From Traorella massiliensis (lineage in GTDB: Bacteria; Bacillota_I; Bacilli_A; Erysipelotrichales; Erysipelotrichaceae): a DNA stretch of 64,000 nt. The notes beneath the pieces were generated by a model. That model saw nothing but the letters and a program-made list of their open reading frames with translations. It made no database searches and was not told where the DNA came from. The position numbers were made by a program, and so were the translations under genes. Positions within the stretch are counted from its first letter, which is position 1, and the number at the start of each line of letters is the position of its first letter. The stretch is taken from contig NZ_LT629968.1 in NCBI RefSeq assembly GCF_900104665.1, positions 124,001 to 188,000 of the forward strand. Direction: 5' to 3'. This document shows, piece by piece, positions 15,417-41,246 of the stretch.

Positions 15417-15507
15417 ATATGCAGATGTTGGGCGGTGAGGTATATTGAGTGTTGATATTTGATATGTGAATGAATCATGATAAATATTTTTGATAGGAGA
15501 AATGAAT

Positions 15508-18336: not shown

Positions 18337-18983
18337 AGGTTATTGTAATTGGATGTGGTAAGTTTGGTGTTAGAGTAACAGAATATCTGGTTCGTCAAAA
18401 TCATGATGTAACGGTTGTAGACAACAATAAAGAAACTTTTCATTCATTAAGTGAGGAGTTTACAGGGAAACTTGTCACGGGTTTTGCATATGATCGAAGT
18501 GTTTTAGAAGAAGCAGGTATTGCAACGGCTGATGTATTGATCAGCTGCGCAAGTAGTGACTCAATCAATGCAGTAGTTGCCAGTCTTGCGAAAAATATTT
18601 ATCATGTACCGAGTGTTATTGCTCGAATGTATGATCCTATTCGTGCCAAGATGTTTGAATCTATGGGTATATATACAATATCGATTACTCGTTTAGGAGT
18701 AGAAAATATTATGGAATATCTAGAAGATAATAGAAGCTGGAGAATCATTCGTAAGCTGAGTGATGGTGATATCCAGCTGGTAAAAGCAAGAGTATCTGCC
18801 GGATTAGAGGGAAAAAAATTTACGGATATAAATGTTGATGGAAAAATGAATCTTATAGCATTAGAAAGGAAAGGTCATTCTTTGTTTCCTAAAGAAGATA
18901 TGATTTGCGAATATAACGATATGCTTTATTTAGCGATCCATAGAGACTATGTGTTGAAAGCCAGGGAAATCCTGCAACTGTAG
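18333..18983 (+). CDS. TrkA/RCK-domain protein 1
   Basis: A 216-residue cytosolic protein with an N-terminal RCK (Rossmann) domain, V-I-V-I-G-C-G-K-F-G and acidic V-D-N-N-K after beta-2, which binds NAD(H) or ATP, and a C-terminal TrkA-C domain from about residue 135 that often binds c-di-AMP or other ligands. Such proteins gate K+ channels and transporters (KtrA, TrkA, CpaA). Here the ATG overlaps the ATPase stop (ATGA), and no TrkH/KtrB membrane subunit is present. Regulation of the ATPase or of a distant channel is inference. Confidence 0.85.
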   Translation: MKVIVIGCGKFGVRVTEYLVRQNHDVTVVDNNKETFHSLSEEFTGKLVTGFAYDRSVLEEAGIATADVLISCASSDSINAVVASLAKNIYHVPSVIARMYDPIRAKMFESMGIYTISITRLGVENIMEYLEDNRSWRIIRKLSDGDIQLVKARVSAGLEGKKFTDINVDGKMNLIALERKGHSLFPKEDMICEYNDMLYLAIHRDYVLKAREILQL

Positions 18984-19000
18984 GGAAAGGAGAAAGTCTG

Positions 19001-19678
19001 ATGAAAATTATTATTGTTGGCGGTGGACAAGTAGGCGGATATATTGCTAGTTTACTTTTAAAAAATAATCATCAAGTAACAGTCATTGAAAATAAAGATC
19101 GTTCATTAGAAACGCTTAAAAAGAATGGATTGAATAAAGACTGTATTTTGGTAGGTGATGGAACAGATGCTTTGGTATTAGAAAAAGCTGGTATCATGCA
19201 ATGCAACGCTTTAGTATGTGCGACAGGTACAGATGAGGCTAATCTTACAGCAGCCATGATGGGCAAGTTTGAATATGATGTACCTAAGGTTATCGCAAGA
19301 GTAAATAACCCTAGAAACTCATGGCTATTTAATGAAGGTATGGGTGTTGATGTGAAAATCAATCAGGCAGATATTATTGGTCATATGATTGCTGATGAGA
19401 TGAACTATCGTTCTATCATGACACTTATGAGACTATCAAAGGGTGATTATTCTATAGTTAGGGTACGTGTAGATTATCATTCACCGAATGCCAATAAAAC
19501 AATCGCTCAACTTCAATTGCCTGCACAGGCAGTATTGATTGCTATTTATGAAGAAGATTCACTTATTATTCCTCATGGTGAGACCATGATCCGTCCAGGT
19601 CAATCTATTTTGGCCTTTGCGAATGAAGAAGCGATGAAAGAATTAAATAGAATTTTTGGTTCTGATGCTTCCGCTTAG
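19001..19678 (+). CDS. TrkA/RCK-domain protein 2
   Basis: A 225-residue paralogue of the preceding protein: I-I-V-G-G-G-Q-V-G-G at the N-terminus, V-I-E-N-K at the end of beta-2, A-T-G-T-D-E-A-N in the middle, and a TrkA-C domain in the last 80 residues ending with L-A-F-A-N-E-E. The two RCK proteins are divergent in sequence and could form a hetero-octameric ring. GAAAGGAG precedes the ATG and the gap to the first is only 17 bases, so they form one operon with the ATPase. Confidence 0.85.
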   Translation: MKIIIVGGGQVGGYIASLLLKNNHQVTVIENKDRSLETLKKNGLNKDCILVGDGTDALVLEKAGIMQCNALVCATGTDEANLTAAMMGKFEYDVPKVIARVNNPRNSWLFNEGMGVDVKINQADIIGHMIADEMNYRSIMTLMRLSKGDYSIVRVRVDYHSPNANKTIAQLQLPAQAVLIAIYEEDSLIIPHGETMIRPGQSILAFANEEAMKELNRIFGSDASA

Positions 19679-19687: not shown

Positions 19688-19714
19688 AAAGGGTCTGTTT
19701 GACAGACCTTTTTT
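19688..19714. terminator. Terminator between trkA-type genes and convergent lipoprotein gene
   Basis: GGTCTG (19692-19697) pairs with CAGACC (19703-19708), flanked by AAA and TTTTTT, so it can work in both directions. Confidence 0.82.
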
Positions 19715-19729: not shown

Positions 19730-20122
19730 TTACTGAATCCTTACTATTTTACCATCACTTTGTTCGAAGATGATATTGACATCATTAATTTGGTAGAGAT
19801 GGTGTAATAAATAGGCAATATAATAATCATTTTCCTTTGTATCAATCAAATGGAGAAGTGTTGTACTAAAATCAGGTATCGTATCTAAGTCGACTGCTAG
19901 GTATAATAAACGAAAATTTTCTAAAGAAATATCAACATCAGGATCAATATTAAAAAATTCTTTAAATTCTTCATCCGTATGCCCTTTTGGTTTATAAATA
20001 TAGGCATAGAAGTTTTCAGTGTAGATATTACGTACAGGTTCATCTAATTCCTGCATGACATATTTAGAAAAGGAGCAAGCAGTTAAGCTAATGATGAATA
20101 TAATGGATAATATCTTTTTCAT
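19730..20122 (-). CDS. Small lipoprotein, hypothetical
   Basis: A 130-residue protein that begins with a short lipoprotein signal, M-K-K-I-L-S-I-I-F-I-I-S-L-T-A-C, with lipobox L-T-A-C. The mature part is acidic and has no recognised domain. GGAGG lies 7 bases before the ATG at 20122; the upstream in-frame start at 20140 would displace the signal. It is the last gene of the long minus-strand run and converges with the trkA-type genes. Role unknown; similar small lipoproteins recur at 21.8, 22.4, 26.5 and 27.2 kb. Confidence 0.75.
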   Translation of the reverse strand: MKKILSIIFIISLTACSFSKYVMQELDEPVRNIYTENFYAYIYKPKGHTDEEFKEFFNIDPDVDISLENFRLLYLAVDLDTIPDFSTTLLHLIDTKENDYYIAYLLHHLYQINDVNIIFEQSDGKIVRIQ

Positions 20123-20164
20123 AGTAATTCCTCCAATCATTAAATAAGTTATGAAATCACAGTG

Positions 20165-20998
20165 TTATCTTTCTTCAGCAACCTCTTGAAAAGCTTCCAA
20201 AGCAATATCTTCCCAATATGTTTTGCCACTACTTACTACACTGTCATTTTCATATACATAAGCATAAATATCTATGATTAGCGCATTGGCATCCGACCAA
20301 GTTCCATTATTATCTTTTTTATTTTGATAACGGACATATAACCCACATTTTTCATTTTTAGATTTACCATTATAAACCAAGTATTCTGTAGTATCATCAT
20401 TTTCAGATAAGATACATTTTGTGGAAGTGAACTTAGCACCATAATATATTTTAAAATTTTCAAGAGGATAGTCAGAATAGATTTCATATATTGCTTTATA
20501 GCCGTCAACTATCTGCTTTTCTTCCTGAGAAGATTCAACCTGCAAATCAGATGTTATATCATCTGATACATTTTCTCTGTAGATATCATGATGTGTTGTA
20601 AGCTGGCTGTGTTCAACTTGACCATCATAATAGAGTGTTACTAGTTCATCATATTGCTCTTCACCCACCAAGATGATTTCTACACGATCATCATACCATG
20701 AAACGATCCAATTCTTTTCACTCATTGACTTCCCATCATTTGCAATTTCAAAATCTGTCTTTGAAATAATTGTCTCATCTTTTTTTAGTATCAGCTTTCC
20801 TGTCTGAGATCCAAATGACCATGCAGGAGTGCTTGTTGCTTGGAGAAGGGCTTCATATGTTCCGTTAACTGATTGAGCTATATCAACATTGGCTGATTTA
20901 AAACACTTTATGTATAAAAGACCTCCAAGTGATACAATAGCTATCATGACAAATATTCTGAATATAATTTTGCTGACATTATAATGTTTCATCATCAT
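20165..20998 (-). CDS. Membrane-anchored hypothetical protein
   Basis: A 277-residue protein with one N-terminal transmembrane segment (about residues 10-30, I-F-R-I-F-V-M-I-A-I-V-S-L-G) and a large outside domain. The domain starts with a stretch around N-G-T-Y-E-A-L-L-Q-A-T that resembles a seen-in-secreted-protein beta fold with W and acidic residues; a Ser/Gln/Glu-rich linker lies near residues 150-160. I do not recognise a family. The ATG lies next to the stop codon of the upstream YcxB-like gene, so the two are coupled. Confidence 0.65.
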   Translation of the reverse strand: MMMKHYNVSKIIFRIFVMIAIVSLGGLLYIKCFKSANVDIAQSVNGTYEALLQATSTPAWSFGSQTGKLILKKDETIISKTDFEIANDGKSMSEKNWIVSWYDDRVEIILVGEEQYDELVTLYYDGQVEHSQLTTHHDIYRENVSDDITSDLQVESSQEEKQIVDGYKAIYEIYSDYPLENFKIYYGAKFTSTKCILSENDDTTEYLVYNGKSKNEKCGLYVRYQNKKDNNGTWSDANALIIDIYAYVYENDSVVSSGKTYWEDIALEAFQEVAEER

Positions 20999-20999
20999 T

Positions 21000-21491
21000 T
21001 TACCTTTTACATTTATTTTTTAGAAATCCCTGTAGATTTTTTTCATTTGCATCATTTCTGTCGATTATAAAATAATTATTGCTTTTGGTAACTATAAGCA
21101 AGAAATGTTCACTTTCTTTCCAATTTTTAATATTATCATAACTTATATCCAAAGTTACAGATGTAGAGCAATTCATGATACTCACGCTGTTTTCTTTGAA
21201 TTCATAGATATATTCGATTAATCCTTTACTTTGAGACAATTCATCGATTCTTCTCATTTGCAGGTTGATAATATACTTAAATATGAAAAATATACCTATT
21301 GGGAAAGCAATAGCATAAAATGTCTGAAAGAATGCTCTTATATAATCATTATCAGTAATTATTGAAGAAAAAGCCTGTAAAACAAGAAAAAAGACTAATA
21401 TAATTGTACCAAATTTAATAAAATTAAGTTTTAATGCTGCTCTCACTAGTTCTTTAAGATCTTCTTTTTTTACAATCGTTTTAAATTTCAT
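21000..21491 (-). CDS. YcxB-like membrane protein, copy 1
   Basis: A 163-residue protein with two transmembrane helices (about 25-45 and 55-75) and a C-terminal domain with Y-E-F-K-E-N-S-V, S-Y-D-N-I-K-N-W-K-E-S-E-H-F-L-L-I-V, the pattern of YcxB-like C-terminal domains. It is clearly paralogous to the protein at 22686-23141 (the blocks Y-D-N-I-K-N-W and E-S-E-H-F are identical). Start 21491 follows GAGGTGG. Function unknown; YcxB-like proteins are often next to regulators and exporters. Confidence 0.75.
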   Translation of the reverse strand: MKFKTIVKKEDLKELVRAALKLNFIKFGTIILVFFLVLQAFSSIITDNDYIRAFFQTFYAIAFPIGIFFIFKYIINLQMRRIDELSQSKGLIEYIYEFKENSVSIMNCSTSVTLDISYDNIKNWKESEHFLLIVTKSNNYFIIDRNDANEKNLQGFLKNKCKR

Positions 21492-21580
21492 TACTATCCA
21501 CCTCACTTTTATATTATAACTATCAATTTATATAATTTGTTTTTTGATTGTCTGAAATGCCATATTATTGTCTAAAAATT
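21492..21580 (-). repeat. Diverged copy of the sequence at 23142-23230 (remnant of a kinase 3' end)
   Basis: The 90 bases before YcxB copy 1 resemble the 90 bases before YcxB copy 2. Both contain TTGTCTGAAATGCC followed about 6 bases later by ATTGTCT. In the second locus this stretch is the last codons of the AgrC-like kinase (residues F-Q-T-I-K-K). In the first locus the kinase is gone. This suggests a duplicated kinase-ycxB unit from which one kinase was lost. The space between 21581 and 21808 is AT-rich and I see no gene in it. Confidence 0.6.
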
Positions 21581-21808
21581 AAATGATACGATTCATATTT
21601 TAATTTTAGTGAGAATGGGAAATAAAAAAATAATTTATGTAGAAACATTTATTTATAAATTTGATGATAAAGAAAATCAAAAAGATTTAATATAAAATTC
21701 AAATATAAGAAATGCTATATATAATTGAAAAGAATGCAATAAATAGTTAAGAAAATAGTTAGTTTCTATTTTTATACTTCATATTAAATATTTTTCTTAA
21801 TGAATACC

Positions 21809-22348
21809 TTAATTAGCTGATGCAGGATGATGAATGACTTCCATGAGTTGCCACTCTGAATCATTCTTTAAACAAAAGAAAAAATCGATTCTGTCAAGAG
21901 TGTCAGAATTATCATAGGTATAGAAAATTGTAGGAACCAGCTGATCCGTATAAAGACCCTCATAATAAGTGATATAAGGATAATTAACTTTTTCAAAGCG
22001 AATAATGACCACGTCTTCATTCGTGGTATTTGTTTGCTGGTTTAAAGTGCTATAATCAGAAAGATTTAATTCAAATTCTTCACCGATAACAAAACCACTT
22101 AAGATTGAAAGAGAATATTCATTCATATTGTCTGTAAGAATTTGAAGATTATTATCTTTCACAAACTCGCTATCATTTAAGTATGTAGTTAAATCAGTAT
22201 AAGATTTTTCTAATATTTCATCAGAATAGAAATCTTCTAAATTAGCATAATATAGATCTTCTTCAATAATCTGATGAGCAGGTTCATTGTGACATCCTGT
22301 TAATAAGAAAGTCATAAATATACAAATAATAGTAGTAATCTTTTTCAT
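21809..22348 (-). CDS. Lipoprotein, hypothetical
   Basis: A 179-residue protein with a clear lipoprotein signal (M-K-K-I-T-T-I-I-C-I-F-M-T-F-L-L-T-G-C; lipobox L-T-G-C). The mature domain is acidic and ends in a beta-rich section with W-Q-L-M-E-V-I-H-H-P. No known family is recognised. It is the second of two lipoproteins that follow the YcxB-like gene; the gap to the upstream lipoprotein is 12 bases. Confidence 0.72.
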   Translation of the reverse strand: MKKITTIICIFMTFLLTGCHNEPAHQIIEEDLYYANLEDFYSDEILEKSYTDLTTYLNDSEFVKDNNLQILTDNMNEYSLSILSGFVIGEEFELNLSDYSTLNQQTNTTNEDVVIIRFEKVNYPYITYYEGLYTDQLVPTIFYTYDNSDTLDRIDFFFCLKNDSEWQLMEVIHHPASAN

Positions 22349-22360
22349 GTTTTCATTTTC

Positions 22361-22648
22361 CTACTTATTGTTAATTTTAATGTTGTTTCCATCGCTATCT
22401 ATGATTAAAGTAGGATCATACTTCATCATTTCTTCATAGATTTCATGATATTTCTTATTCTGATAATCATCTAAATATTCTTCCTTAAACTCATCCGTAA
22501 TATTTTGCTGATTTTCATCTGTGAGCCATACTTCATCAGCATACAGAGCTTCCACTAAATCGATTTCTTCCTGGGTAGCACTGTTAGTGCAGCCACACAA
22601 CATCGTACTGATAATAAATATAAATGGTAATAGTCTTTTTTTCATCAT
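22361..22648 (-). CDS. Small lipoprotein, hypothetical
   Basis: A 95-residue protein starting at the first of two adjacent ATGs (22648, 22645) after an A-G-G-G-G-G-A ribosome site. The signal peptide ends at lipobox L-C-G-C. The mature part is acidic and short. If the upstream YcxB-like gene were intact, its stop codon would overlap this ATG (TAATG), so the two were probably coupled before the frameshift. Function unknown. Confidence 0.7.
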   Translation of the reverse strand: MMKKRLLPFIFIISTMLCGCTNSATQEEIDLVEALYADEVWLTDENQQNITDEFKEEYLDDYQNKKYHEIYEEMMKYDPTLIIDSDGNNIKINNK

Positions 22649-22685
22649 TATTTCCCCCTTTTGCATTTATCTCTTAGAAATTCTT

Positions 22686-23141
22686 TTAAAAATCATATTC
22701 ATTTGCTTCATCTTTATTGATTGTAATCGTTTGTCTTGCTTTTGTGATTAAAATAAAGAAATGTTCACTTTCTATCCAATTTTTAATATTATCATAACTT
22801 ATATCATAATTAGCAGATATGGTTTGGTTTATGATATTGATGCTATTTTCTTTGAATTCATAGCAATATGTGATGATACCCTTGTTTTGTGTTATCTCAT
22901 TTATTTTATTCATAGTTCTTTTAAAGATAATATGTTTTAAGAGTGATGGATAAAAAACGATAAGTATATCTAATATCAGGTATATTAGAGCATTCACATA
23001 ACTATCTAATAAAAAACATGCAGAGGTAACAAGAATAGTTAGTATTAATAATATACGGCATATAACAAGTACAAATTTAGGAAGTGACATGTTAGATATT
23101 TCTTTTATATTCTCACTTTTTAATGTTATTTCAAATTTCAT
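22686..23141 (-). pseudogene. YcxB-like membrane protein, copy 2, 3' frameshift
   Basis: A 151-residue protein with two helices and the same C-terminal domain as copy 1 (F-K-E-N-S-I-N-I, S-Y-D-N-I-K-N-W-I-E-S-E-H-F). It stops after D-E-A-N-E-Y-D-F. The next frame continues K-E-F-L-R-D-K-C-K-R, which matches the end of copy 1 (Q-G-F-L-K-N-K-C-K-R). One missing T in the run GATTTTTAAAAG at about 22686-22695 explains the change. It lacks only about 11 residues and could still be functional. A sequencing error in the homopolymer is possible. Confidence 0.65.
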
Positions 23142-23186
23142 TTCGATTCACCGCACTTAAATATTATAACAATTATTCTATATTAT

Positions 23187-24446
23187 TTACTTTTTTATTG
23201 TCTGAAATGCCTTTTTATTGTCTGAAATATCTTTTTCAAAGAATAAGAAGTTGATGGTACATTTCAATTGTGAAGGATCATTTTCTATAAGATGATAAAT
23301 TCCATAATGATCCAGCATATCTTTTAAGTCTGTGGATAATTGAAACTCATCATTGTTAGCTGAAGTGAAAGAAAAAGATAGAATGGTTTGTTTCTCAATT
23401 TTTTTACTTATAATGTTTAATGAAGGCTGATCAGCACTTGATTGGATACATGCTTGTATTCCTGTATCAATGGCATATTTAAATATTATTTCCATTTCCA
23501 TATCGTTGCATGGAGGAAATACAGTACATTCTAATTGTATTCTTAACTGGATATTATTATTTTTTATAATATAAAGTCTATCGTTGATGATGACATCTAG
23601 AATTTTATAATTAGAATTGATCATATTGTATATATTGATAGAATCACTATAAATATCATTGATATAGTTTTCTAGTTCTGTATACTTTCCTTTCTTTAAA
23701 AGTTTCATCATATCTATAGATTGATTGCGAATATCATGAAGGAATACATTGTGTTGAGATAGTAATTGAGTCGCGGATTCATTTTCCATTTCTGTCTTCT
23801 TTAATTTTAGTTCTAACTCCGTTTCGTTTGCGATTGTAATAACAGTTTTGTAATAGATATAAATACAGACTAAATTTGAAATAAGTAATCCAATAACAAT
23901 GAAAATAAAAAAGGTCTGGTTGACAACTGCCTGGTAATAATCATCAATATTGATAATTAAAAGAACTGTTGTTAATGGAAGGCATAGTAATATCCATGAA
24001 TACTTTGGAATAGCTTTTAATGAAAAAGTTTTCCAATAGATCGATATGATATACATAAAAAATAAAAGAAATAGATTAGTGACGATGATTCCCAAGATAT
24101 ATGCAAGATCGTTTGAAACGACATTCTCTAGAAAAAATAAAGAAAAGAATCTCATGGTAAATAAGTCACAAAGGGATGAACAAATGAGATAAAACAAAAA
24201 GAAAAATGCTTTATATGCAAGAGTATTCTTAAAGAAATATAGAATGATGATATATGTACCAAACGAAAGTATAAAATTTATATGAAGACTTTCTCTTATT
24301 GGTGCTAAAGTTTTGATAAGTATCAGTAATAAAAGAGTAACTAGAAAAAGAAGATGATTTTGTTTTTCTTTGAAATGGAAAAACAATCTGCAACATAATG
24401 TGTATATTACGATACAAACGATACTTGAAACTAGATTTCCAATCAT
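23187..24446 (-). CDS. AgrC-like sensor (GHKL family), degenerate ATP site, HK1
   Basis: A 419-residue protein with six or seven N-terminal transmembrane helices (to about residue 200), a coiled linker, an H-box F-L-H-D-I-R-N-Q-S-I-D-M (about residue 240) and a C-terminal GHKL-like domain. The N-box, normally L-x-D-N-A-I-E, reads A-I-D-T-G-I-Q-A-C; the usual G-boxes are not recognisable. So it may be unable to bind ATP. Its ATG overlaps the LytTR regulator stop (ATGA), so the two are translated together. Membrane plan and H-box resemble peptide-pheromone receptors of the AgrC type. Confidence 0.8.
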   Translation of the reverse strand: MIGNLVSSIVCIVIYTLCCRLFFHFKEKQNHLLFLVTLLLLILIKTLAPIRESLHINFILSFGTYIIILYFFKNTLAYKAFFFLFYLICSSLCDLFTMRFFSLFFLENVVSNDLAYILGIIVTNLFLLFFMYIISIYWKTFSLKAIPKYSWILLCLPLTTVLLIINIDDYYQAVVNQTFFIFIVIGLLISNLVCIYIYYKTVITIANETELELKLKKTEMENESATQLLSQHNVFLHDIRNQSIDMMKLLKKGKYTELENYINDIYSDSINIYNMINSNYKILDVIINDRLYIIKNNNIQLRIQLECTVFPPCNDMEMEIIFKYAIDTGIQACIQSSADQPSLNIISKKIEKQTILSFSFTSANNDEFQLSTDLKDMLDHYGIYHLIENDPSQLKCTINFLFFEKDISDNKKAFQTIKK

Positions 24447-25153
24447 GCTGTTAGTCCCCTATTCATATAGTGAATGTAGTCTTTTCTAAATTGTTCGATA
24501 TAGATATCGGTGATGGGTAAATGTTCGCCATTTGTCATAATGATTTCGTGTTTATTGAAAGTCTGAATGTGTTCCAAATTCACTAAAAAAGCACGATGAG
24601 GCTGTGAAAAAGGATAGTCTTTAAGATGATTTGACCATTTTAATAAAGTATCATTATTAATAAATTCCTTCTTATCTACAAAATGAATATGCAGTTTTCT
24701 TGCAATCATTTCTATGTATGTGATTTCGTGATAATAGATTTTATCTTGTGAATATCTGCCATCATAAAAACCGGCATTTTGATAGAAATAATCTTTTGCT
24801 AGTGAATCTATAGATACATTAAAAGTATCCTGGGAAACTGGTTTTAAAAGATAAAGGTTTGCACTTGCTTTATATCCATCAATCAGATATTTAGTAAAAG
24901 CGGAAATAAAAATAATTCTAATATCTTTGTTTTGTTGTCTGATCTTGCAAGCTAAATCAACACCATTGGTATTATTGTTGAGCTCAATATCCATGAGTAT
25001 AAAATCATAATGATCAATAGAATCAAGAATTCTTGAATAATCTTGTTCGATATCATAAGATATTTCAATTTCTGATTTTTTATTATAGTTGTCGATTAGA
25101 TCAATTAGTTCTAATAAATCATTTTGGTTATCTTCAATAATTAAAAATTTCAT
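24443..25153 (-). CDS. LytTR-family response regulator, RR1
   Basis: A 236-residue AgrA/VirR-type regulator. The receiver has I-I-E-D at the N-terminus, phospho-acceptor D55 in F-I-L-M-D-I-E-L, and K in L-L-K-P. The C-terminal LytTR DNA-binding domain has Y-I-E-M-I-A-R-K-L-H-I-H-F, P-H-R-A-F-L-V-N-L-E-H-I and M-T-N-G-E-H-L-P-I. It lies between two AgrC-like sensors. Start 25153 is chosen since GGGGAGAAG is just upstream and the receiver begins there. Paralogous to the regulator at 41247-41948. Confidence 0.9.
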   Translation of the reverse strand: MKFLIIEDNQNDLLELIDLIDNYNKKSEIEISYDIEQDYSRILDSIDHYDFILMDIELNNNTNGVDLACKIRQQNKDIRIIFISAFTKYLIDGYKASANLYLLKPVSQDTFNVSIDSLAKDYFYQNAGFYDGRYSQDKIYYHEITYIEMIARKLHIHFVDKKEFINNDTLLKWSNHLKDYPFSQPHRAFLVNLEHIQTFNKHEIIMTNGEHLPITDIYIEQFRKDYIHYMNRGLTA

Positions 25154-25248
25154 ATTCTTCTCCCCACTATTACATAAAAAGTAGCATAAAATCGGCAATA
25201 AATCAATTTTATAGTTATTGCGATTTATTCAAATATGCTATTTTAATT

Positions 25249-26478
25249 TTATGATTGATTAAAAATAAAACTTATAGAAATCATATTTGGAGAAATTTCA
25301 GAAGAAACGAGATAGTTTAATTGCTGTTTAGAAATAAAATCATGTAAATCCTTTTCAATCTTATTTTTTATTTCTTCTGTATTTTTTGAATACGACTGAA
25401 AAGATAATGTTAAAAGTGTCATCTGATCAAATGGTTTACTGACTATTTGTATTTTTCTTGAATCAGCTTCATTTTTTAATGATTCATGAATGGCTAAATC
25501 TATTAGATAGCAAAAAAATGATTCCAATTCAAAAGAATCATAACCAAAAAAATGAGTTGTTTGTAATATAGATTTAATTTCAATTTGATTATTTTTTAAG
25601 ATAAAGAGGCGATCGTTAATAATCATATCAAGAAGATCATAATTTGTATTTATCATATTGTAGGTGTTTGCAGTATCTTGATAAATGTTTTGAATATACT
25701 CTTTTAATTCTGTAAGTTTTTGATGATCTAAAAGCTCGATCATATCTATCGATTGTTTGCGTATATTATGAAAAAACAAATCTTGCTGATTAAGTATTTT
25801 TTCGGCTGTTTCTAGTTTTATTTTTGTTTTATGTATTTTTTTATCTAATTCATTTTCGTTGATGATTTTGATCGTTGCAAGATAAAAAACATAAATACAT
25901 ATTAAATTAGAAAGAAGGAGGCCTAGCAAAATAAATACGAAATAATTTGATCTCCCAGTTACTTCATAATAATCACTGATACCTAAAATCATGAGTATGG
26001 TTGTTGTTGGTAAAATAAAGATAGCTCCAAAATATTTAGGAAGCGAAGGAAGTTTAAATGTCTTTATATAGATTGAAAGGATTTTAATGAGGAGGATTAA
26101 AAAGAAATTACTTAACAAAATACCACTAAAATATGCAATAGATTGGGTGTTAAGAACTTCTTCTTTAGAGAAAAAGAGCGTATTTATCTTAAGTGATAAT
26201 AATTCACAGATGACATTAATTAATGCATAGAAAATTAAAAGTAAAGATTTGTGAATAAAAGTCCCTTTGAAAAAAAATAAAAGAATAATACTTGTTATCA
26301 GTGATGAAACAAAATTAAGTTGAGGGTTTCCTTGTATGCTTATGATTGATTTAAAAGAAACGATGATAAGTTGAATCAAAATGTATTTTTTCTTTGATAT
26401 ATTCATTTCAAAGAAACTTTGGCAGGTTACAGAAAATATAAAGAAATTTAAAATACTAGATAATAAGTTAGCGAACAT
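25249..26478 (-). CDS. AgrC-like sensor, degenerate ATP site, HK2
   Basis: A 409-residue paralogue of HK1, with the same order: about six membrane helices, linker, H-box F-F-H-N-I-R-K-Q-S-I-D-M, and Y-N-M-I-N-T-N-Y-D-L-L-D-M-I-I-N-D-R-L before the GHKL-like domain. The N-box is L-I-D-L-A-I-H-E-S, again without the essential asparagine, and no G-boxes are seen. Having two sensors flanking one regulator is unusual; they might form a heterodimer or sense different peptides. Confidence 0.8.
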   Translation of the reverse strand: MFANLLSSILNFFIFSVTCQSFFEMNISKKKYILIQLIIVSFKSIISIQGNPQLNFVSSLITSIILLFFFKGTFIHKSLLLIFYALINVICELLSLKINTLFFSKEEVLNTQSIAYFSGILLSNFFLILLIKILSIYIKTFKLPSLPKYFGAIFILPTTTILMILGISDYYEVTGRSNYFVFILLGLLLSNLICIYVFYLATIKIINENELDKKIHKTKIKLETAEKILNQQDLFFHNIRKQSIDMIELLDHQKLTELKEYIQNIYQDTANTYNMINTNYDLLDMIINDRLFILKNNQIEIKSILQTTHFFGYDSFELESFFCYLIDLAIHESLKNEADSRKIQIVSKPFDQMTLLTLSFQSYSKNTEEIKNKIEKDLHDFISKQQLNYLVSSEISPNMISISFIFNQS

Positions 26479-26507
26479 GAGATTGTATTCTCCTATTTAG
26501 ATAGCTT

Positions 26508-27071
26508 TTATTGAATTTCATATACATGAGATTCAATGACCAGTTGATCTTGCTTACCTTGTTCAACTAAAATAAATGGGTCTGAATATATGTTAGCTTC
26601 TTTATTTTCACTTATAGTAACTTCAATAAAACCATCATAGCCCTCAAATTCTCGACGTTTAAGAATAAAGTCTTCATCTAGTTCATAAAAAGCACTAAAA
26701 TAGTTTAATGTTTCATTTAAAAAATTATCTTCTTGTAATTGGAATACCTCATATAACAAATATTCTAAACAATCTTTATCATTACACTTTGAATTAATTA
26801 AATGATTCTCTGTCCAGCTTATAAAAACTTCATTATGCCAGTCCTTGCCTTGTACATAAATAACGATTCTTCCTGTTTCATCTTCTGTTTCTGTATCATA
26901 AAGTTTAGAAGCGACTACAACACCAATTCTATCCTCATCTAATCCATATTTTTCACTGGTATATGGAGTATTTGCTAATTCGAGATTTATTGTAGGATCA
27001 TTTTTCTCATTGCTGTGACAAGCTGTTAAAACAAGTGTAGAAAGTAAGATAACTATTATTGACTTTTTCAT
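26508..27071 (-). CDS. Lipoprotein, hypothetical
   Basis: A 187-residue protein with a lipoprotein signal, M-K-K-S-I-I-V-I-L-L-S-T-L-V-L-T-A-C. The mature part is very acidic, with L-D-E-D-R-I-G-V-V-V and an aromatic-rich C-terminal half. No family recognised. It sits between the ABC/lipoprotein genes and HK2, so it could be an extracytoplasmic sensor or immunity component; that is inference. Confidence 0.7.
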   Translation of the reverse strand: MKKSIIVILLSTLVLTACHSNEKNDPTINLELANTPYTSEKYGLDEDRIGVVVASKLYDTETEDETGRIVIYVQGKDWHNEVFISWTENHLINSKCNDKDCLEYLLYEVFQLQEDNFLNETLNYFSAFYELDEDFILKRREFEGYDGFIEVTISENKEANIYSDPFILVEQGKQDQLVIESHVYEIQ

Positions 27072-27177
27072 TTTATGCCTCCTTTTATTAGGAAATCTAT
27101 AGGTTTATCATATTTGCTCATCGTTGAATAGCATGTTAAATGATAAGCTTACTTTCATTTTATTCTGTTTTTTCTTC

Positions 27178-28233
27178 TTATGTCAAAGATAATAAGGAAA
27201 TTGTCATAGTTTCACTGATATAATCCTGTTCAAATATATAGATACCATTATTCATTGCTAAAGTATTTAAATTATCTACAGAATTATAATTTATCGATGT
27301 AGTTATGATGTCAATGGAATCATAATATCTTAAGATTACTAATTCGCCTGCTTCATTATATGAATAGTAATAGTCATCATATTGAAACCAAAATAATGTT
27401 TTGATGGGAGTGTCAAGTTGAATCTTATCTTTTGTGTTACGATCAATAACATATGTATTAAGTAAATCCTGCATATTGCCGCCATCAGGTTCTGTGTAGT
27501 TTGAAACTAAAAGAATATCATCAAAAATAAGATAATGTGAATAGTGTTCTAAATAATATTCTTCATCATTGATAATTACTAGATTATCTTGGTCTGATGA
27601 ATATTCCAAGACAAGGGCATCATCATAGTAATAATTTGTTAAAGTATAGTCATCTATTTGAAGAGGCTTGCGCTCTATTTCTTTATATCCGGCTGAAGTA
27701 ATCTCATTGATGATAAGATCATTATCTTCATCATAAACCAGATATGCCTTATCGTTTTCTTCATAAACAGATAAATGCCGATAGTTACTGGTTAAATCTA
27801 CGGATTGAGTGTTCTCACGAAGAAAGGAGTAATGACCGTTTTTCTCAACATAATAGGAAGTTGTATTCATCTGATTTTCATAATCAATGATTACTTTGGT
27901 ATATACATTATATTCGCTGGTGGAAATAGAAACATGTCCATATGTTTCATCCTCTTGAATAGGATTGGTGTCTGATTCCCTATATTCCTTTGTTTCAAAA
28001 TCGTAAATACCATACCCATGTAAAATATTATATTGATCATATTTTTCAATGCAAGCACTTACTTTGCCATCAATCGTACATCCCCAAGCTGCCGTATTTA
28101 CAGGTATGTTTTCAATCGTCGAAACAGGTTCGATCGTATATCCTGTATCAAGCATATTCACTTCAATTGTTCTTTCTTTTTGACATCCTACAAGCGTAAA
28201 TAAAGCGAGTAAGCTAACTGCTATTTTTTTCAT
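27178..28233 (-). CDS. Lipoprotein, beta-rich, hypothetical
   Basis: A 351-residue protein with signal M-K-K-I-A-V-S-L-L-A-L-F-T-L-V-G-C (lipobox L-V-G-C). The mature domain is tyrosine and aspartate rich with repeated short beta-like blocks (Y-x-Y-x-x-D patterns), which suggests a beta-propeller-like fold, but I cannot assign a family. The ATG overlaps the stop of the ABC ATPase (ATGA), so the protein is almost surely a partner of that transporter. The frame is open upstream to 28332, but that part is antisense to nothing sensible and lacks a ribosome site. Confidence 0.75.
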   Translation of the reverse strand: MKKIAVSLLALFTLVGCQKERTIEVNMLDTGYTIEPVSTIENIPVNTAAWGCTIDGKVSACIEKYDQYNILHGYGIYDFETKEYRESDTNPIQEDETYGHVSISTSEYNVYTKVIIDYENQMNTTSYYVEKNGHYSFLRENTQSVDLTSNYRHLSVYEENDKAYLVYDEDNDLIINEITSAGYKEIERKPLQIDDYTLTNYYYDDALVLEYSSDQDNLVIINDEEYYLEHYSHYLIFDDILLVSNYTEPDGGNMQDLLNTYVIDRNTKDKIQLDTPIKTLFWFQYDDYYYSYNEAGELVILRYYDSIDIITTSINYNSVDNLNTLAMNNGIYIFEQDYISETMTISLLSLT

Positions 28234-28913
28234 TTTCTTTCCTCCTTGCTGATCATTTTCTTCTGATCGATCATAAGCTGAACATCTGCCATTTCCGCAA
28301 GCTTTTGATTGTGTGTCACCATGATCACACATTTCTTTTCCTCATGTGCTAATTGTAGAAATGCATCCATGATTGACTGACTGGCAGTCTGATCTAAATT
28401 TCCTGTCGGTTCATCTGCAATGATGACTTTAGATTCTGTAAGGATCGTCCGTACGATAGCTACACGCTGCTGTTCACCACCGCTTAAACTATTCACTTTA
28501 CGTTTCGCTTTCTTTTCATCAATGCCATATTTAGCTAATAATTCAACAACTTTTTTCTTATCAAGAAATGATACATTGCTTGAAATATCCATTGCTATCA
28601 AACAGTTTTCAATTGCATTCAAATGGGGAATCAAATTATAGCTTTGAAAGACCATTGATACACCACTTCGGCGATATTTATCCAGTCCGATCTCTTTGAT
28701 TTCTTTTCCTTCATAAATTACTTCACCTTCATAACGCTTATCAAGACCTGCAATCACAGAAAGAAAGGTCGTTTTTCCAGATCCGCTATCACCTAAAATA
28801 GCGTAGAATCGTCCACACGAAAAGCTGATATTACAGTCTTCAAAAATAATTCTTTTTCCATCACCATCTGGATAAAAATAATTGAGATGTTTTACTTCCA
28901 GCACGTGCTCCAT
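28230..28913 (-). CDS. ABC transporter ATPase (MacB/LolD type)
   Basis: A 227-residue ATPase with Walker A G-D-S-G-S-G-K-T, Q-loop Q-S-Y-N-L-I, signature L-S-G-G-E-Q-Q-R-V-A, Walker B V-I-I-A-D-E-P-T-G-N-L-D and V-T-H-N. It overlaps the permease stop by one base. With two FtsX-type permeases it should form a mechanotransmission complex of the MacB type rather than a classic importer. The gene order suggests work on the secreted protein upstream or on cell-envelope peptides. Confidence 0.92.
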   Translation of the reverse strand: MEHVLEVKHLNYFYPDGDGKRIIFEDCNISFSCGRFYAILGDSGSGKTTFLSVIAGLDKRYEGEVIYEGKEIKEIGLDKYRRSGVSMVFQSYNLIPHLNAIENCLIAMDISSNVSFLDKKKVVELLAKYGIDEKKAKRKVNSLSGGEQQRVAIVRTILTESKVIIADEPTGNLDQTASQSIMDAFLQLAHEEKKCVIMVTHNQKLAEMADVQLMIDQKKMISKEERK

Positions 28914-30289
28914 TAGTTCCAGCCTCCATTTCTTGATAAAATACGATCATTTAAAATCAGCATCATTGAACCTAGTACACTGATAAATACAACGGCTAAT
29001 GTTTCAATCGCTGCATACAATGCCTTTACTCCATTAAAGGACAAGGTTTGAATATTGTCATTGATATTGCTGCTGTCCAAAGTTGTACTAGTAAATTTAA
29101 GTAATTCACTTTGCAGCTCAACATTATCTTTCAGCATCATGATACTTAATTGATTGGATATGAAATACCCGATAGCGATTCCGATTAAAACAGCAACTAC
29201 ACCAATCAGCATATAAGCCAGTGCATAATGAAGAGTGATCTTAAGTTTTGATTGGCCTAGAGAATAATAAACGCTCATCTCGGCACTCTTTTTCTTTAAT
29301 AAATAATAAATACTAGAAATTAGTATCAAAGCAGTAATGATAAAAACAATGGAAAATATGACCTGATATACATTTTTTATTCTCATAACAGACTGGATGA
29401 TACTTCCGGTATTCGTTTCGGTAATCGTGAGATTGGAAGGAATATATTCTAAAGCTTCTATTTCTCGATTAAACTTTCTGATTAAGGAATCTAATTTGTC
29501 CTGAAAGCCTACATAATCCTGATAATCTTTTAGATAAAAGCAGATATGGTTAAGCGAGTAGTGATAGCTGTCGATGGTTTCATTTTGAACTTTTGTCAAT
29601 AAAAGATCATGGAGTATTTTATTTGATAGAAGAACACCTTGGGAATTCACAAATGAATCATTCTTTTCATAATAGATACTTTGTTTCTTGTGTTTATAAA
29701 TACCAATGACTTCTACAGTGATATCTTTGTGGATACCGCCATTTTCATCATCAGCTTCACCTAAGGAAATATGATCACCAATTTTTAGGGATGTTTCATT
29801 ACTAACTATAATATAAGGAACGCCTGAATCGATTTCTTCCTGTGAAAGAAATCTACCCTCGACAAGCTCGATATGATTATCCAGCAAATAATTTTCATTT
29901 GAAACACCAAACAGTCTGTATCCTGTCAAAAACCCCATTTCTTTATCATAGCCACTGTATAGATCCATTTGGATATTATAATCTGCATAATCGATTTCTT
30001 CCTCTTTCTCGACTTCTTCGATCCAAGTAATGATTCTTTCAAAGTAATCATGATGATAATCATACAGAGTGATCTCTGAACCTTCAGGTCCTACTACATG
30101 GGTATTGCCGATCTCATATCTCAAGGATAATGTATTAGCAATATTTGCTTCCATTGAATCGTCATATCCAAAGAAATGTATCAGAGATAAGAACAAAGAC
30201 ATGATCAAAAGAATAGAAAATATGATCATGGTTTCTACTTTTTTCTTTATGATTTGATTAAGTACATTTCTTAGATAATAGCTTTTCAT
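28913..30289 (-). CDS. FtsX-like ABC permease, second subunit
   Basis: A 458-residue protein with one N-terminal helix (about 18-40), a large extracytoplasmic domain (to about residue 300), and three C-terminal helices with the motif A-E-M-S-V-Y-Y-S-L-G-Q-S-K, the usual FtsX/MacB coupling region. Its ATPase follows with a one-base overlap and another FtsX-type gene precedes it by one base. A heterodimeric permease is expected. Confidence 0.88.
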   Translation of the reverse strand: MKSYYLRNVLNQIIKKKVETMIIFSILLIMSLFLSLIHFFGYDDSMEANIANTLSLRYEIGNTHVVGPEGSEITLYDYHHDYFERIITWIEEVEKEEEIDYADYNIQMDLYSGYDKEMGFLTGYRLFGVSNENYLLDNHIELVEGRFLSQEEIDSGVPYIIVSNETSLKIGDHISLGEADDENGGIHKDITVEVIGIYKHKKQSIYYEKNDSFVNSQGVLLSNKILHDLLLTKVQNETIDSYHYSLNHICFYLKDYQDYVGFQDKLDSLIRKFNREIEALEYIPSNLTITETNTGSIIQSVMRIKNVYQVIFSIVFIITALILISSIYYLLKKKSAEMSVYYSLGQSKLKITLHYALAYMLIGVVAVLIGIAIGYFISNQLSIMMLKDNVELQSELLKFTSTTLDSSNINDNIQTLSFNGVKALYAAIETLAVVFISVLGSMMLILNDRILSRNGGWN

Positions 30290-30290
30290 A

Positions 30291-31769
30291 TTAACTGTCC
30301 TTCAATAATTCTTTTGGATCAATTCTTTTGATCAGGAAAATCAAAAGAATACTTTCAAATAAACATATACCTATGATATAAACAGATGTGATCTTTATAT
30401 TATCAGTAATTGATAATGGCTGCAGGATTTCTTCATAGTGCTCAACTTCAATTTTATAGCTGCTATCATTGAACTGAACAGATTCTTCCTGAATGATCTG
30501 ATCCTGAACCAAGCGGTTTGCTACACGGACGCCGATAGTTTGAGTGACAGCGAAAGATACTGTGATTGCAATCAACGATACGATTAACATTTCAAGAATA
30601 TATTGGATGACAACAGCTTTAAATGATTCACCCAATGATAATAATATTCCAATTTCTTTCTTGCTTGTTTCAATGTCGAACAAAAGCAGGATAAATGTGA
30701 TGCAGATGCAGGCAATGAAGCATAAGGCTGAAATGTAGAATATTGATTTTGAAATAGAGAGAATATTACTGATTGAAGAAAACTGTGTTTCCATGGTCGT
30801 GCTGTATGTATATCCTTCATCAAATTTATCAGCATAGTTTTCTAAATAGTTGATAAACCCTTTAAAGTCATCAATTGTAGAGAATTTGAAGATCGTTGGA
30901 TGAACGACAAATGCACTGTGTTCTTCAAGATAATTATCATATGTTTCATTTGCGATTTTCAGCGGAGATTCGATCATTTCACCAAAAGCAAGTTCAGGAA
31001 TATAGATAGGTGATTCCAAAAAATTTGACATAGTTTCCATTGAAACACCATTTTCAGCATTGTAAACACCAATGACCGTATATGTGTGTTCCTTATAATG
31101 TACGATATTTCCATTTTCATCCTGAACAAATTCTGAAAGTACGATCTCATCACCTAGCCAGACAGATAAAACTTTTCCATCTCTATATTCTCTAAAGCCA
31201 TTTGGAATGATACAGACATGTTCACCATTGATTAGCTCATTTTCATTAAATGTTCTTCCAGCAACCAAAGTTGCAGCTTTCATTTCAATATCTTTGGGTA
31301 CGCTACTACGTACACTTTTTACATCTGATGAAATTAGCCAGAAAGTGTTGATTTGTTCCCATATTTCTTCATTGCTGATAGGTGAGGAACCTCCACTGTC
31401 ATATAGTGTTACATTATCGCCCTCAATTTTTATGGATCTGATCAAAGACCTGAAAGCTTTATTCGTTAAATTGAAATCATAGTAACTAGGAGATGTATGA
31501 GTGGCAATATCACGGATCGTTTCTTCATATTCAGCTGTTTCCTGTAAAAAAGTTTCTAATTCCATGCCTTCTTCTTGGATATTTGGATTGATCTCAGCAT
31601 AGATGTCAAATTCTCCAATAATACTGTTTTCTAATTGTTTGGAGATATTCTGGATATACAGTGAAGAAAATAACATTGAAAATAAGACAATAAAAACTAC
31701 GCATTTCAAAAAAGTCTTACTTAACTTCTTTGTGAGATCTAATTTTACTCTGCGTAGTATTCGTTTCAT
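30291..31769 (-). CDS. FtsX-like ABC permease, first subunit
   Basis: A 492-residue protein with the same plan: N-terminal helix (about 22-42), extracytoplasmic domain of about 300 residues, and three C-terminal helices with K-K-E-I-G-I-L-L-S-L-G-E-S. It ends K-E-L-L-K-D-S. It is the first transporter gene after the secreted protein, separated by 42 bases. The large outer domain is typical of MacB-type exporters that deal with peptides or envelope targets. Confidence 0.88.
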   Translation of the reverse strand: MKRILRRVKLDLTKKLSKTFLKCVVFIVLFSMLFSSLYIQNISKQLENSIIGEFDIYAEINPNIQEEGMELETFLQETAEYEETIRDIATHTSPSYYDFNLTNKAFRSLIRSIKIEGDNVTLYDSGGSSPISNEEIWEQINTFWLISSDVKSVRSSVPKDIEMKAATLVAGRTFNENELINGEHVCIIPNGFREYRDGKVLSVWLGDEIVLSEFVQDENGNIVHYKEHTYTVIGVYNAENGVSMETMSNFLESPIYIPELAFGEMIESPLKIANETYDNYLEEHSAFVVHPTIFKFSTIDDFKGFINYLENYADKFDEGYTYSTTMETQFSSISNILSISKSIFYISALCFIACICITFILLLFDIETSKKEIGILLSLGESFKAVVIQYILEMLIVSLIAITVSFAVTQTIGVRVANRLVQDQIIQEESVQFNDSSYKIEVEHYEEILQPLSITDNIKITSVYIIGICLFESILLIFLIKRIDPKELLKDS

Positions 31770-31811
31770 GATAACTCCTCTAAGAATAATTCATTTTAGA
31801 TAATTATGTAT

Positions 31812-32243
31812 TTAATCAGCTCTCACTGTATATGTAGCTGTTCTATCTTTAAATACATACATTCCGCTACTGTTAAGTATATCATATCTAAAGGAAACTG
31901 TAATATTTAAATAAGTACCTTTAATATCTGCTGTTATTGAATTTTTAACAATACCACTAGCTGAAATGTTTTGACTATCTTCTTGAGTAACATTCGCATA
32001 TACAGCATTATATTCTTTAATTAAAAAGTTATTTTCTCTGGTTACGTTAGCACCTACATGCACATTAAATATTATGAAACTTGAACTATTTATAGAAGTA
32101 ATAAACCTTTCGTCGCCAGAAACAAAATTGGTTGCTAAAGTTTCGATATTTTGTGTTGAATCATTTGCATTGACCATTGTTGTAGGAACACATAGACAAA
32201 AAGCAGTAAGAATAGAACATAGTATCGAACTAATTTTTTTCAT
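31812..32243 (-). CDS. Secreted small protein, hypothetical
   Basis: A 143-residue protein with a Sec signal peptide (M-K-K-I-S-S-I-L-C-S-I-L-T-A-F-C-L-C-V-P, cleavage probably after V-N-A-N). The mature part has no cysteine, is Asn/Ser/Thr rich and alternates hydrophobic residues like a beta-sandwich, ending T-A-T-Y-T-V-R-A-D. It opens the ABC operon, where bacteriocin genes such as lactococcin 972 types are found, but no known bacteriocin motif is seen. GAGGAGG precedes the ATG. It may be the exported product of the locus. The 220 bases upstream hold AT-rich sequence and a ATACTT-TC-AAGTAT dyad at 32427-32440. Confidence 0.72.
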   Translation of the reverse strand: MKKISSILCSILTAFCLCVPTTMVNANDSTQNIETLATNFVSGDERFITSINSSSFIIFNVHVGANVTRENNFLIKEYNAVYANVTQEDSQNISASGIVKNSITADIKGTYLNITVSFRYDILNSSGMYVFKDRTATYTVRAD

Positions 32244-32463
32244 ATTTGCACCTCCTCAATATATTATCGATATATTTTTCTCAATATCTTAAATAAAGGT
32301 ATCAATAGAAATGTTTTGCAGCGTGATTACTAACAATAGCAAACAACTTGTATATAATTGATTAATAACAAATAAAAGAATTTTACTAAATTTTATATCT
32401 AATTTTCGATTATCCGCATAAACACTATACTTTCAAGTATTTTGAAGTATAGAAAAAACTCAT

Positions 32464-32484
32464 TTTACCACGAATTTACCACGA
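32464..32484 (+). repeat. Left-end direct repeats (Int arm-type sites)
   Basis: TTTACCACGA occurs at 32464-32473 and again at 32475-32484. Similar sites appear at the right end of the element. Confidence 0.6.
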
Positions 32485-32558
32485 TTGAATGAGCCTTGAT
32501 ATGACCTATAAAATAACACCCAAAAGACATCATTACACCTAAATGGTGTCTTTTTAAA

Positions 32559-32586
32559 AAGCAGTCAATCCTAAGACTAACTGCTT
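32559..32586 (-). terminator. Terminator of dfrF, shared repeat unit
   Basis: AAGCAGT (32559-32565) pairs with ACTGCTT (32580-32586), with a T-run on the minus strand. About 38 bases here are identical to 33408-33445, downstream of the alkyltransferase-like gene. Confidence 0.75.
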
Positions 32587-32674
32587 TGTGTGTATGGATA
32601 TGAAATTGTCAAACTGGGATTTGTCTTACAACAATTTATATATGCATAAAAAGCAATATATTTATGAAAACACC

Positions 32675-33169
32675 CTAAATCCAAAATCTACTCAATTCAT
32701 TTTTCCTTACATAAAATGTTCTCGTATATTTCACTTCCTCACCAAGTGTTTCCCCTATCAAAACTTCAAAATCATTGATATCAAATTCTGGAAAGAATGT
32801 ATCTCCATCTTCAATATTTAAATCTACTTCTGTGATATACATTTTATCTACTATTTGCAAAGCTTCCTTAAATAGTCCATATCCACCAGATATGTATACA
32901 TCTCGTCCTTTAGCCAATAATAATGCATCTTCTAATGATTTAACTGAAACTAAATTATCTCCTTGATACTCTGTTGTGGTGGAAACAACAATATTCATTC
33001 TATTAGGCAACGGATGACCGATTTCTTCATAAGACTTTCGCCCCATAATAACCACATTACCCGTTGTTAACTCTCTAAATTGCTTTTGTTCTCCCTTTAT
33101 TTTCCATGGTATATTACCATTCTTGCCTATAACATTATTCTTTGACCTCGCAACAATCAAACCTATCAT
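32675..33169 (-). CDS. dfrF: Trimethoprim-resistant dihydrofolate reductase DfrF
   Basis: A 164-residue DHFR. The N-terminus I-G-L-I-V-A-R-S-K-N-N-V-I-G and I-P-W-K, the G-R-K-S-Y-E-E-I-G NADPH contact, and I-S-G-G-Y-G-L-F are standard DHFR landmarks. The full sequence reads like the DfrF enzyme known from enterococci and streptococci, which reduces dihydrofolate even when trimethoprim is present. GGAGGATG precedes the ATG. It has its own promoter (33299-33327) and terminator, both copies of those around the next gene. Confidence 0.88.
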   Translation of the reverse strand: MIGLIVARSKNNVIGKNGNIPWKIKGEQKQFRELTTGNVVIMGRKSYEEIGHPLPNRMNIVVSTTTEYQGDNLVSVKSLEDALLLAKGRDVYISGGYGLFKEALQIVDKMYITEVDLNIEDGDTFFPEFDINDFEVLIGETLGEEVKYTRTFYVRKNELSRFWI

Positions 33170-33327: not shown

Positions 33328-33411
33328 TAAAATTTTATGCACCGATAATCTTAGTGAACAGCTCTAACAAACACCATTTCATCACTCCAATCTGAAATTT
33401 AGGTATGAAAA

Positions 33412-33439
33412 AAGCAGTCAATCCTAAGACTAACTGCTT
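33412..33439 (-). terminator. Terminator of alkyltransferase-like gene, repeat copy
   Basis: AAGCAGT (33412-33418) / ACTGCTT (33433-33439) with T-run on the minus strand; identical to the unit after dfrF. Confidence 0.75.
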
Positions 33440-33476
33440 TGTGTATAGAGATATGAAATTGTGAAATAGAATTTGC

Positions 33477-36496: not shown

Positions 36497-36699
36497 TGAA
36501 TAACAACGATATTCCCGTATGGGAAAAATACACCCTTACCATTGAAGAAGCGTCAAAATATTTCCGTATCGGAGAAAACAAGCTAAGACGCTTGGCAGAG
36601 GAAAACAAGGACGCTGGCTGGCTCATTATGAATGGCAACCGCATACAGATTAAACGCCGACAGTTTGAAAAGGTCATTGATAAATTGGACGCAATCTAA
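36496..36699 (+). CDS. xis: Excisionase (Tn916 Xis-like)
   Basis: A 67-residue protein with [25 protein letters not shown] as HTH and a basic tail. It closely matches Tn916 Xis in length and pattern. It bends the ends of the element and directs Int toward excision. The ATG overlaps the stop of the relaxase gene, and int follows after about 80 bases. Confidence 0.92.
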
Positions 36700-36777
36700 T
36701 GCAAATGAGCCTTGTATGTGTTATGATGAACACAAGTCATATCAAGGCTCTTTCCAACAAGGAAAGGAGCAGACACC

Positions 36778-38857: not shown

Positions 38858-39001
38858 TAAAATAGAATTATTGGGAAAAAGAATGTATTATATATTTAGT
38901 AAAAGATCTTTTATTATTTTCTAATTAGAGATAATTGCTCATGTGTTTTTATCTTTAAAGCTTTCTCACTATTGATTAACGTATGGAAAAAGGAGGACTA
39001 T

Positions 39002-41232: not shown

Positions 41233-41246
41233 TGTACTAACCTCAT

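Follow-up and report, generated by a model that had tools for sequence, protein, structure and literature searches.

What is a closely packed run of genes for, when it joins a small secreted protein, an ABC transporter, two receptor-like membrane proteins around one regulator, and a series of lipoproteins? The run lies at positions 19730 to 32243 of the 64,000-nucleotide (nt) stretch of Traorella massiliensis DNA analysed here, called the window (contig C8, positions 124001-188000, in a 2.6 Mb genome of which C6, C7 and C9 are other contigs). The initial annotation took the locus to make, sense or resist a peptide or secreted protein, and this fits the cassette at its core, which recurs elsewhere and resembles lactococcin 972 loci; the run as a whole is not one conserved system. 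In our favoured explanation, to which we give about an even chance, the locus is bacteriocin-like and works like the lactococcin 972 group, with a toxin, self-protection by the ABC transporter, accessory immunity from lipoproteins and YcxB proteins, and an agr-derived regulator.

In the open reading frame listing of the window, 15 genes, all on the minus strand, extend from 32243 down to 19730, and those named by the initial annotation are present where it had placed them, with Pfam confirming FtsX/MacB_PCD, ABC_tran, LytTR together with Response_reg, and YcxB. The genes are given below with the hairpin that follows them (L159 is contig C50 of G058, the genome of a sister species, and represents the same chromosomal site; aa, amino acids; TM, transmembrane segments):

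31812-32243, minus strand: SP143, small secreted protein with a signal peptide and AxA-type cleavage, about 117 aa when mature, six predicted beta strands
30291-31769, minus strand: FtsX1, FtsX/MacB-type permease with 4 TM (PF02687 2.5e-09, PF12704 5.8e-06)
28913-30289, minus strand: FtsX2, FtsX/MacB-type permease with 4 TM, paralogue of FtsX1 (24%; PF12704 1.3e-07, PF02687 1.4e-06)
28230-28913, minus strand: ABC ATPase (ABC_tran; top NCBIfam model TIGR03608)
27178-28233, minus strand: LP5, 351-aa lipoprotein, a predicted beta-propeller (AlphaFold2 and Foldseek), with a 4-nt overlap with the ATPase stop
26508-27071, minus strand: LP6, 187-aa lipoprotein with a lipobox, its 3' end found in sister-genome locus L159
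25249-26478, minus strand: HK1, AgrC-like membrane protein, H-box His retained, N-box Asn lost, no HATPase match
24443-25153, minus strand: RR, LytTR response regulator (PF04397 1.8e-13, PF00072 3.9e-12), receiver Asp and Lys intact
23187-24446, minus strand: HK2, AgrC-like membrane protein, HDIRN H-box retained, Thr in place of the N-box Asn
22686-23141, minus strand: YcxB1, YcxB-like membrane protein (PF14317 9.2e-06), C-terminus shorter than in YcxB2
22361-22666, minus strand: LP11, small lipoprotein with an 85% identical copy in L159
21809-22348, minus strand: LP12, 179-aa lipoprotein, sister-genome copy 80-86% identical with a stop codon inside
21000-21506, minus strand: YcxB2, duplicate of YcxB1 (PF14317 8.2e-09)
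20165-20998, minus strand: P14, 277 aa with an N-terminal membrane anchor, no family assignment
19730-20140, minus strand: LP15, lipoprotein, L159 copy about 80-87% identical
19688-19712, no single strand: bidirectional terminator-like hairpin at the run's end, the single strong terminator-like site

The cassette of a secreted protein (SP), two FtsX permeases and an ABC ATPase is recurrent across the Erysipelotrichaceae, and the one studied here is among several in this genome. Four SP-type proteins were recovered in the genome as paralogues by an SP profile (154 aa on C6, 147 aa on C7, SP143 on C8 and 143 aa on C9), each encoded directly upstream of an FtsX permease gene within an FtsX/ABC cassette. 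Locus L092, from a distant member of the Erysipelotrichaceae, has the same order as here, a 150-aa secreted protein followed by FtsX1, FtsX2 and an ABC ATPase that is 63% identical. Overall, a secreted protein of 110-170 aa was encoded directly upstream of 9 of 60 FtsX/ABC cassettes of the family compared to 6 of 429 other genes (p ~1e-5; one of the nine is a permease fragment, and the true secreted protein is encoded by the next gene upstream), an enrichment that is partly circular because part of its set had suggested the idea. As a blind test, a profile built from ten SPs was run on 316 genomes of the order Erysipelotrichales and returned seven further groups at E<1e-7. The next gene encoded an FtsX permease in five of these seven (L160, L162, L166, L167 and L168), against a background of about 1 in 117 genes, and the two remaining groups have BlaI/BlaR1-type genes (L161) or an XRE-membrane protein (L163-165 and L170). 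At the level of the class, full-length matches to the SP profile lay almost wholly inside the Erysipelotrichaceae, with one new case, L196, followed by a lipoprotein gene. The search for conserved gene order that the initial annotation had recommended hence has a divided outcome: the core cassette recurs and the full run is not conserved. Regulators with HTH and TPR parts adjoin several SP cassettes or SPs; this combination is typical of peptide-sensing Rgg/ComR-type proteins.

The C6 cassette is broken up by insertion sequences, and directly upstream of its 154-aa secreted protein lies a gene for a secreted C39-like cysteine peptidase (L064 8496-9182; PF13529 3.4e-13). In another of the order's families, ABC and membrane genes adjoin the gene of a different secreted protein of 150 aa, which matches the SP profile weakly (L171 6263-6715). 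A plasmid origin of the locus was rejected, as no relatives of FtsX2 or HK1 were found among 72,556 plasmids.

Lactococcin 972-type loci (lcn972-orf2-orf3, scbABC, and Lmo2776 with lmo2774-2775) share with the cassette a small Sec-secreted protein, one or more FtsX-like components and a TIGR03608-type ATPase. Mature lactococcin 972 has 66 residues and six strands, and we counted it in favour of our explanation that six strands are also predicted for SP143. TIGR03608, which represents the ATPase of the lactococcin 972 group, was the best of 18,950 NCBIfam families for the ATPase (191.7 bits), and the order of secreted protein, FtsX-type membrane protein(s) and ATPase on one strand is found here as well as in L092 and L190. 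L190 (4328-9271) contains the sole gene over the lactococcin 972 cut-off in the 316 genomes, within a one-strand arrangement of a LytTR regulator, a GHKL kinase, lcn972, a TIGR01654-like protein and a TIGR03608 ATPase. Its ATPase scores above the cut-off and its TIGR01654-like protein below (93.6 bits), and this membrane partner bears a weak FtsX-like stretch. Given the L190 layout, LytTR/AgrC-type genes do occur beside loci of the lactococcin 972 kind in this order. The family has been described as Sec-secreted beta-sandwich proteins whose B and C genes are predicted to act in immunity and transport (PMC11796350), and orf2-orf3 of lcn972 have been treated as immunity genes (PMC4055356). Streptococcin B (scb), a pneumococcal relative of lactococcin 972, is under competence and ComR-type control, that is, peptide quorum sensing (PMC11796350).

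The cassette nevertheless differs from these loci: mature SP143 has about 117 residues instead of 66 and misses TIGR01653/PF09683, two separate 4-TM FtsX permeases stand in place of one 670-aa TIGR01654-type protein, the ATPase stays under the cut-off, and the locus adds lipoproteins, YcxB proteins and duplicated receptors. Because it lacks three defining sequence features, we regard the SP143 locus as a working analogue, not a member, of the lactococcin 972 loci. The initial annotation had stated that no described system has this set of genes, which is true of the exact set in the literature searched, although the core appears to work like a described kind.

Several results weigh against a bacteriocin-like role. 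The ATPase score lies below the TIGR03608 cut-off of 254.85 bits, whereas the L190 ATPase reaches 272.7; SP143 has no match to TIGR01653 or PF09683, and TIGR01653 is absent genome-wide. FtsX1 and FtsX2 match FtsX and MacB_PCD and neither TIGR01654 nor DUF1430, and a profile comparison of the two with the lactococcin 972 membrane partner was not significant. Some SPs have neighbours other than FtsX (a lone lipoprotein, an XRE-membrane protein or BlaI/BlaR1-type genes), and the majority of the family's FtsX/ABC cassettes lack an SP. The SPs are also very divergent (11-24% identity to SP143), so their common descent rests on the profile, the shared position and the architecture. The HK-RR-HK block beside FtsX1/FtsX2 is not conserved in the other genomes sampled, and a search for LytTR-type direct repeats gave none upstream of SP143 and fewer in the window than in shuffles. 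Finally, AlphaFold2 with the ten-row SP alignment gave SP143 six beta strands in a weak model (pLDDT 59.4, pTM 0.50), compatible with a small beta-sandwich and too weak for a fold assignment. Foldseek and VIA-align found no clear match of this weak model in the PDB (the structure of lactococcin 972 itself did not appear among the matches listed, which counts neither for nor against), and no solved homologues of SP143 were found. Structure prediction, another check put forward by the initial annotation, gave LP5 a 28-strand model (pLDDT 79.3, pTM 0.76); beta-propellers headed its Foldseek list, in which 142 matches had E-values up to 1e-3.

We also compared the SPs to the BLB8/JUQZ-1 family (NF053514), a secreted antibacterial protein of similar size (PMC11747845). 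Two SP paralogues match it weakly (E ~0.004, ~17 bits vs a cut-off of 40), whereas SP143 has no match; all scores are less than half the cut-off, and the signal peptide may account for them. Neither SP143 nor its paralogues reach the 40 bits of this model, and none of the SPs scanned reaches the cut-off of any bacteriocin model.

If the locus is bacteriocin-like, SP143 would be exported via Sec, trimmed by signal peptidase and act as a small beta-rich, probably beta-sandwich, effector against competing, probably related, bacteria. The ATPase would assemble with FtsX1 and FtsX2 into a single ABC complex of the MacB type, which shields the producer and perhaps aids release of the effector. The lipoproteins, including the LP5 beta-propeller, and the YcxB proteins may provide extra surface or membrane immunity, act as accessory factors or tune specificity, and would multiply through duplication and be easily lost. 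The LytTR regulator would set expression of the locus. In short, the gene content, the recurrent cassette, the lost kinase motifs and the mosaic evolution are observations, and we infer from them killing activity, immunity by the ABC complex and by the lipoproteins, and control of the cassette by the regulator.

The two sensors that the initial annotation had described as degenerate are indeed so: neither HK1 nor HK2 has a HATPase match. The two proteins are duplicates (38-40% identical). In an alignment (A4) of eleven AgrC-like receptors from Erysipelotrichaceae, the H-box His is invariant, the N-box Asn is retained only in HK3, which belongs to a neighbouring agr-like locus, and G-boxes are not visible. 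Pfam GHKL/HATPase_c_5 was detected in one of the eleven and in neither HK1 nor HK2, while the L190 kinase, which is of the same general type and served as a positive control, gave a GHKL match of 3e-19. Loss of the ATP-binding motifs is, judging from the aligned sequences, a trait of the whole local AgrC-like family and not of this locus, and the idea that sensor degeneracy is special here was rejected. The partner LytTR regulators conserve Asp8, Asp50 and Lys104 (alignment A5). Since HK1 and HK2 appear unable to bind ATP in the usual way, they would probably gate the regulator via phosphatase activity, phosphotransfer or binding, and not by autophosphorylation.

Pairs of an AgrC-like receptor and a response regulator adjoin AgrB at L023, L027, L031 and positions 42013-42579 of the window, the last within the following feature:

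40000-42579, minus strand: neighbouring agr-like locus HK3-RR3-AgrB3 (AgrB PF04647 2.4e-24)

AgrB3 (42013-42579) is the only AgrB in the genome, located by the genome-wide search at window 42058-42567, and lies ~16 kb from the locus, HK3 is ~31% identical to HK1, and no AgrB was found within the 15-gene run. Because the relatives of the receptors pair with AgrB and the sole AgrB is elsewhere, we consider HK1-RR-HK2 to be a receptor set that derives from agr and has no AgrB of its own. The HK3-RR3-AgrB3 locus is a possible signal source for HK1/HK2, and the trigger may be the signal of this agr-like neighbour (40-42.6 kb) or SP143 itself. A second RR-HK pair of the same family adjoins the C6 cassette, the two being separated by insertion sequences. 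Similar to agr, AgrC-like receptors with a conserved phospho-His adjoin an AgrA/LytTR-type regulator with a phospho-acceptor Asp; however, the locus has neither AgrB nor AgrD, has two receptors per regulator and lacks a recognisable ATP-binding domain. In the LytTR Regulatory Systems (HdrRM, BrsRM), a LytTR regulator is under a kinase-inactive membrane protein, together with bacteriocin genes and sometimes ABC transporters (PMC6193735). The locus is comparable in that its LytTR regulator lies beside membrane proteins seemingly without kinase function. However, those regulators have no receiver domain, whereas RR has one (PF00072 3.9e-12) with the phospho-Asp, and the membrane proteins here retain the AgrC-like layout and the His.

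In the agr-like loci (window 40000-42870, L023, L027, L031), a frequent order is HTH protein, AgrB, LytTR regulator and AgrC-like receptor. Window positions 38392-38787 encode a 131-aa remnant, the C-terminal part of an AgrC-like receptor (35% to the C6 receptor), which a secreted 209-aa protein (38972-39601) adjoins.

The SP family is apparently undescribed, and the receptor pair is unusual. A more specific version of our explanation, which we put forward tentatively and consider somewhat less probable than its failure, is that the SPs constitute a new bacteriocin family that evolves fast, is secreted via Sec, has a beta-sandwich fold and occurs mainly in Erysipelotrichaceae. Its members would be paired with a heterodimeric FtsX/FtsX/ABC immunity complex and, at this locus, be under an agr-derived receptor pair that has lost its ATP-dependent kinase activity and acts on its LytTR regulator by another mechanism. 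If this is true, common gut commensals carry an unrecognised secreted antibacterial family that current bacteriocin models overlook, and the FtsX/FtsX/ABC partner next door offers a ready genetic handle. It also raises the question of how an AgrC-like receptor signals without a recognisable ATP-binding domain, family-wide and beside a phosphorylatable LytTR regulator.

An alternative explanation, unlikely in our view, is that the locus is an envelope-stress or antimicrobial-defence module and makes no toxin: the ABC complex would remove foreign peptides or lipid-II binders, and SP143 and the lipoproteins would be surface decoys or sensors, switched on by the AgrC-like/LytTR pair. FtsX/MacB transporters do serve in resistance, yet the permease here is a pair of 4-TM FtsX proteins and not one large BceB-type permease. 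The duplicated lipoprotein and YcxB genes resemble protective genes and most FtsX/ABC cassettes of the family do without a secreted protein, but the first gene of this locus encodes a Sec-secreted, highly variable protein at the bacteriocin position of lactococcin 972 loci.

The evolutionary history of the run bears on a further explanation. The locus is a mosaic and not one conserved unit. Its near-continuous character, as given in the initial annotation, applies to most of it, interrupted by gaps of 106 nt (LP5-LP6), ~95 nt (HK1-RR) and 302 nt (LP12-YcxB2), and G+C is 24-28% across ~21-27 kb compared to 35-40% in most of the flanks. The lipoprotein or anchored set reported there was confirmed as five lipoproteins and one anchored protein, P14; LP5, LP6, LP11, LP12, LP15 and P14 have no Pfam/NCBIfam match above cut-off. 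YcxB1 and YcxB2 are tandem duplicates (39% as proteins), and the duplication (69% identity over 617 columns) took along a relic of the HK2 tail, which sits at the end of the 302-nt gap. The G058 site, with a flank 84-87% identical to window 5.8-15.2 kb, holds copies of LP11, LP12 and LP15 and, where the contig breaks off, the 3' end of LP6; amino-acid identity is 80-87%. Its LP12 copy is broken by a stop codon, and the site is without both HK1-RR-HK2-YcxB1 and YcxB2-P14. No FtsX1/FtsX2 orthologue was seen in G058, and three tandem homologues of LP5 lie at a different site of that genome. The HK-RR-HK-YcxB block may have been inserted here or lost in G058, where the putative deletion scar is weak: 1 of 300 shuffles scored as high when the 3' end of YcxB1 was used, and 14 of 300 when the whole YcxB1 gene was used. 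L159 appears as a decaying lipoprotein array, from which the P-type ATPase and trkA genes (window 15490-19678) are likewise absent. A conserved full gene order was rejected, as the whole run was retained neither in the other genomes sampled nor at the G058 site. The lack of conserved order that the initial annotation had named as evidence against a single system was hence found in part for the full run, because the G058 site lacks the receptor block and YcxB2-P14, and not for the core.

This history leaves room for an unrelated patchwork, in which cassette, receptor block and lipoprotein array are juxtaposed in a variable, G+C-poor region and have no joint function. We think this improbable, more so than a defence module. 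The sister species does have the lipoprotein array without HK-RR-HK, the LP5 family and SP cassettes occur apart elsewhere, the run has gaps of 95-302 nt and mobile-element genes follow at 35-49 kb. However, all 15 genes are encoded on the same strand, most of them overlapping or closely spaced, and the run closes with one strong terminator-like site. In addition, another SP cassette has an RR-HK pair beside it, and the order's one lactococcin 972 locus also has RR-HK.

Least probable of all is a LolCDE/MacB-like transporter whose substrates for extraction or release would be SP143 and the lipoproteins encoded nearby, the set building a surface structure instead of a weapon. Five lipoproteins, one a predicted beta-propeller, are encoded alongside, FtsX2 has a weak match to lolCE models (1.4e-05), and LolD ranks second among the models for the ATPase. 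However, with 24 bits against a cut-off of 362 (lolCE) and 164.8 bits against 308 (LolD), neither supports LolCDE membership; lipoproteins persist at the G058 site while no FtsX1/FtsX2 orthologue was found in that genome, and distant orthologous cassettes are without these lipoproteins.

Regulatory sequences were also sought. The best candidate was:

32409-32436, minus strand: best promoter-like site upstream of SP143 (weak evidence, the region being no richer in sites than shuffles)

The promoter scan as a whole gave no excess of sites over shuffles, and a search for RNA elements found none. Upstream of SP143, at window 32463-32484, there is a perfect 11-bp tandem repeat (TCGTGGTAAAT TCGTGGTAAAA); it was rejected as a regulator site, having one further copy in the genome (C7:262209, one mismatch) with no cassette near.

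Integrated mobile elements adjoin the locus. A rolling-circle replication initiator and a Tn916-type integrase lie at window 35486-37971 (35.5-38 kb), and a second integrase near a tRNA-Leu (49082-49165) is found at 47603-49165. Between the locus and these elements, a dihydrofolate reductase gene (32675-33169) is accompanied by repeats of 58 nt (32556-32613 and 33409-33466) that share 93% identity, and by a pair of 68-nt repeats (81%) at 33265 and 34028. The repeats of this region look like tandem gene units with a common terminator and promoter sequence.

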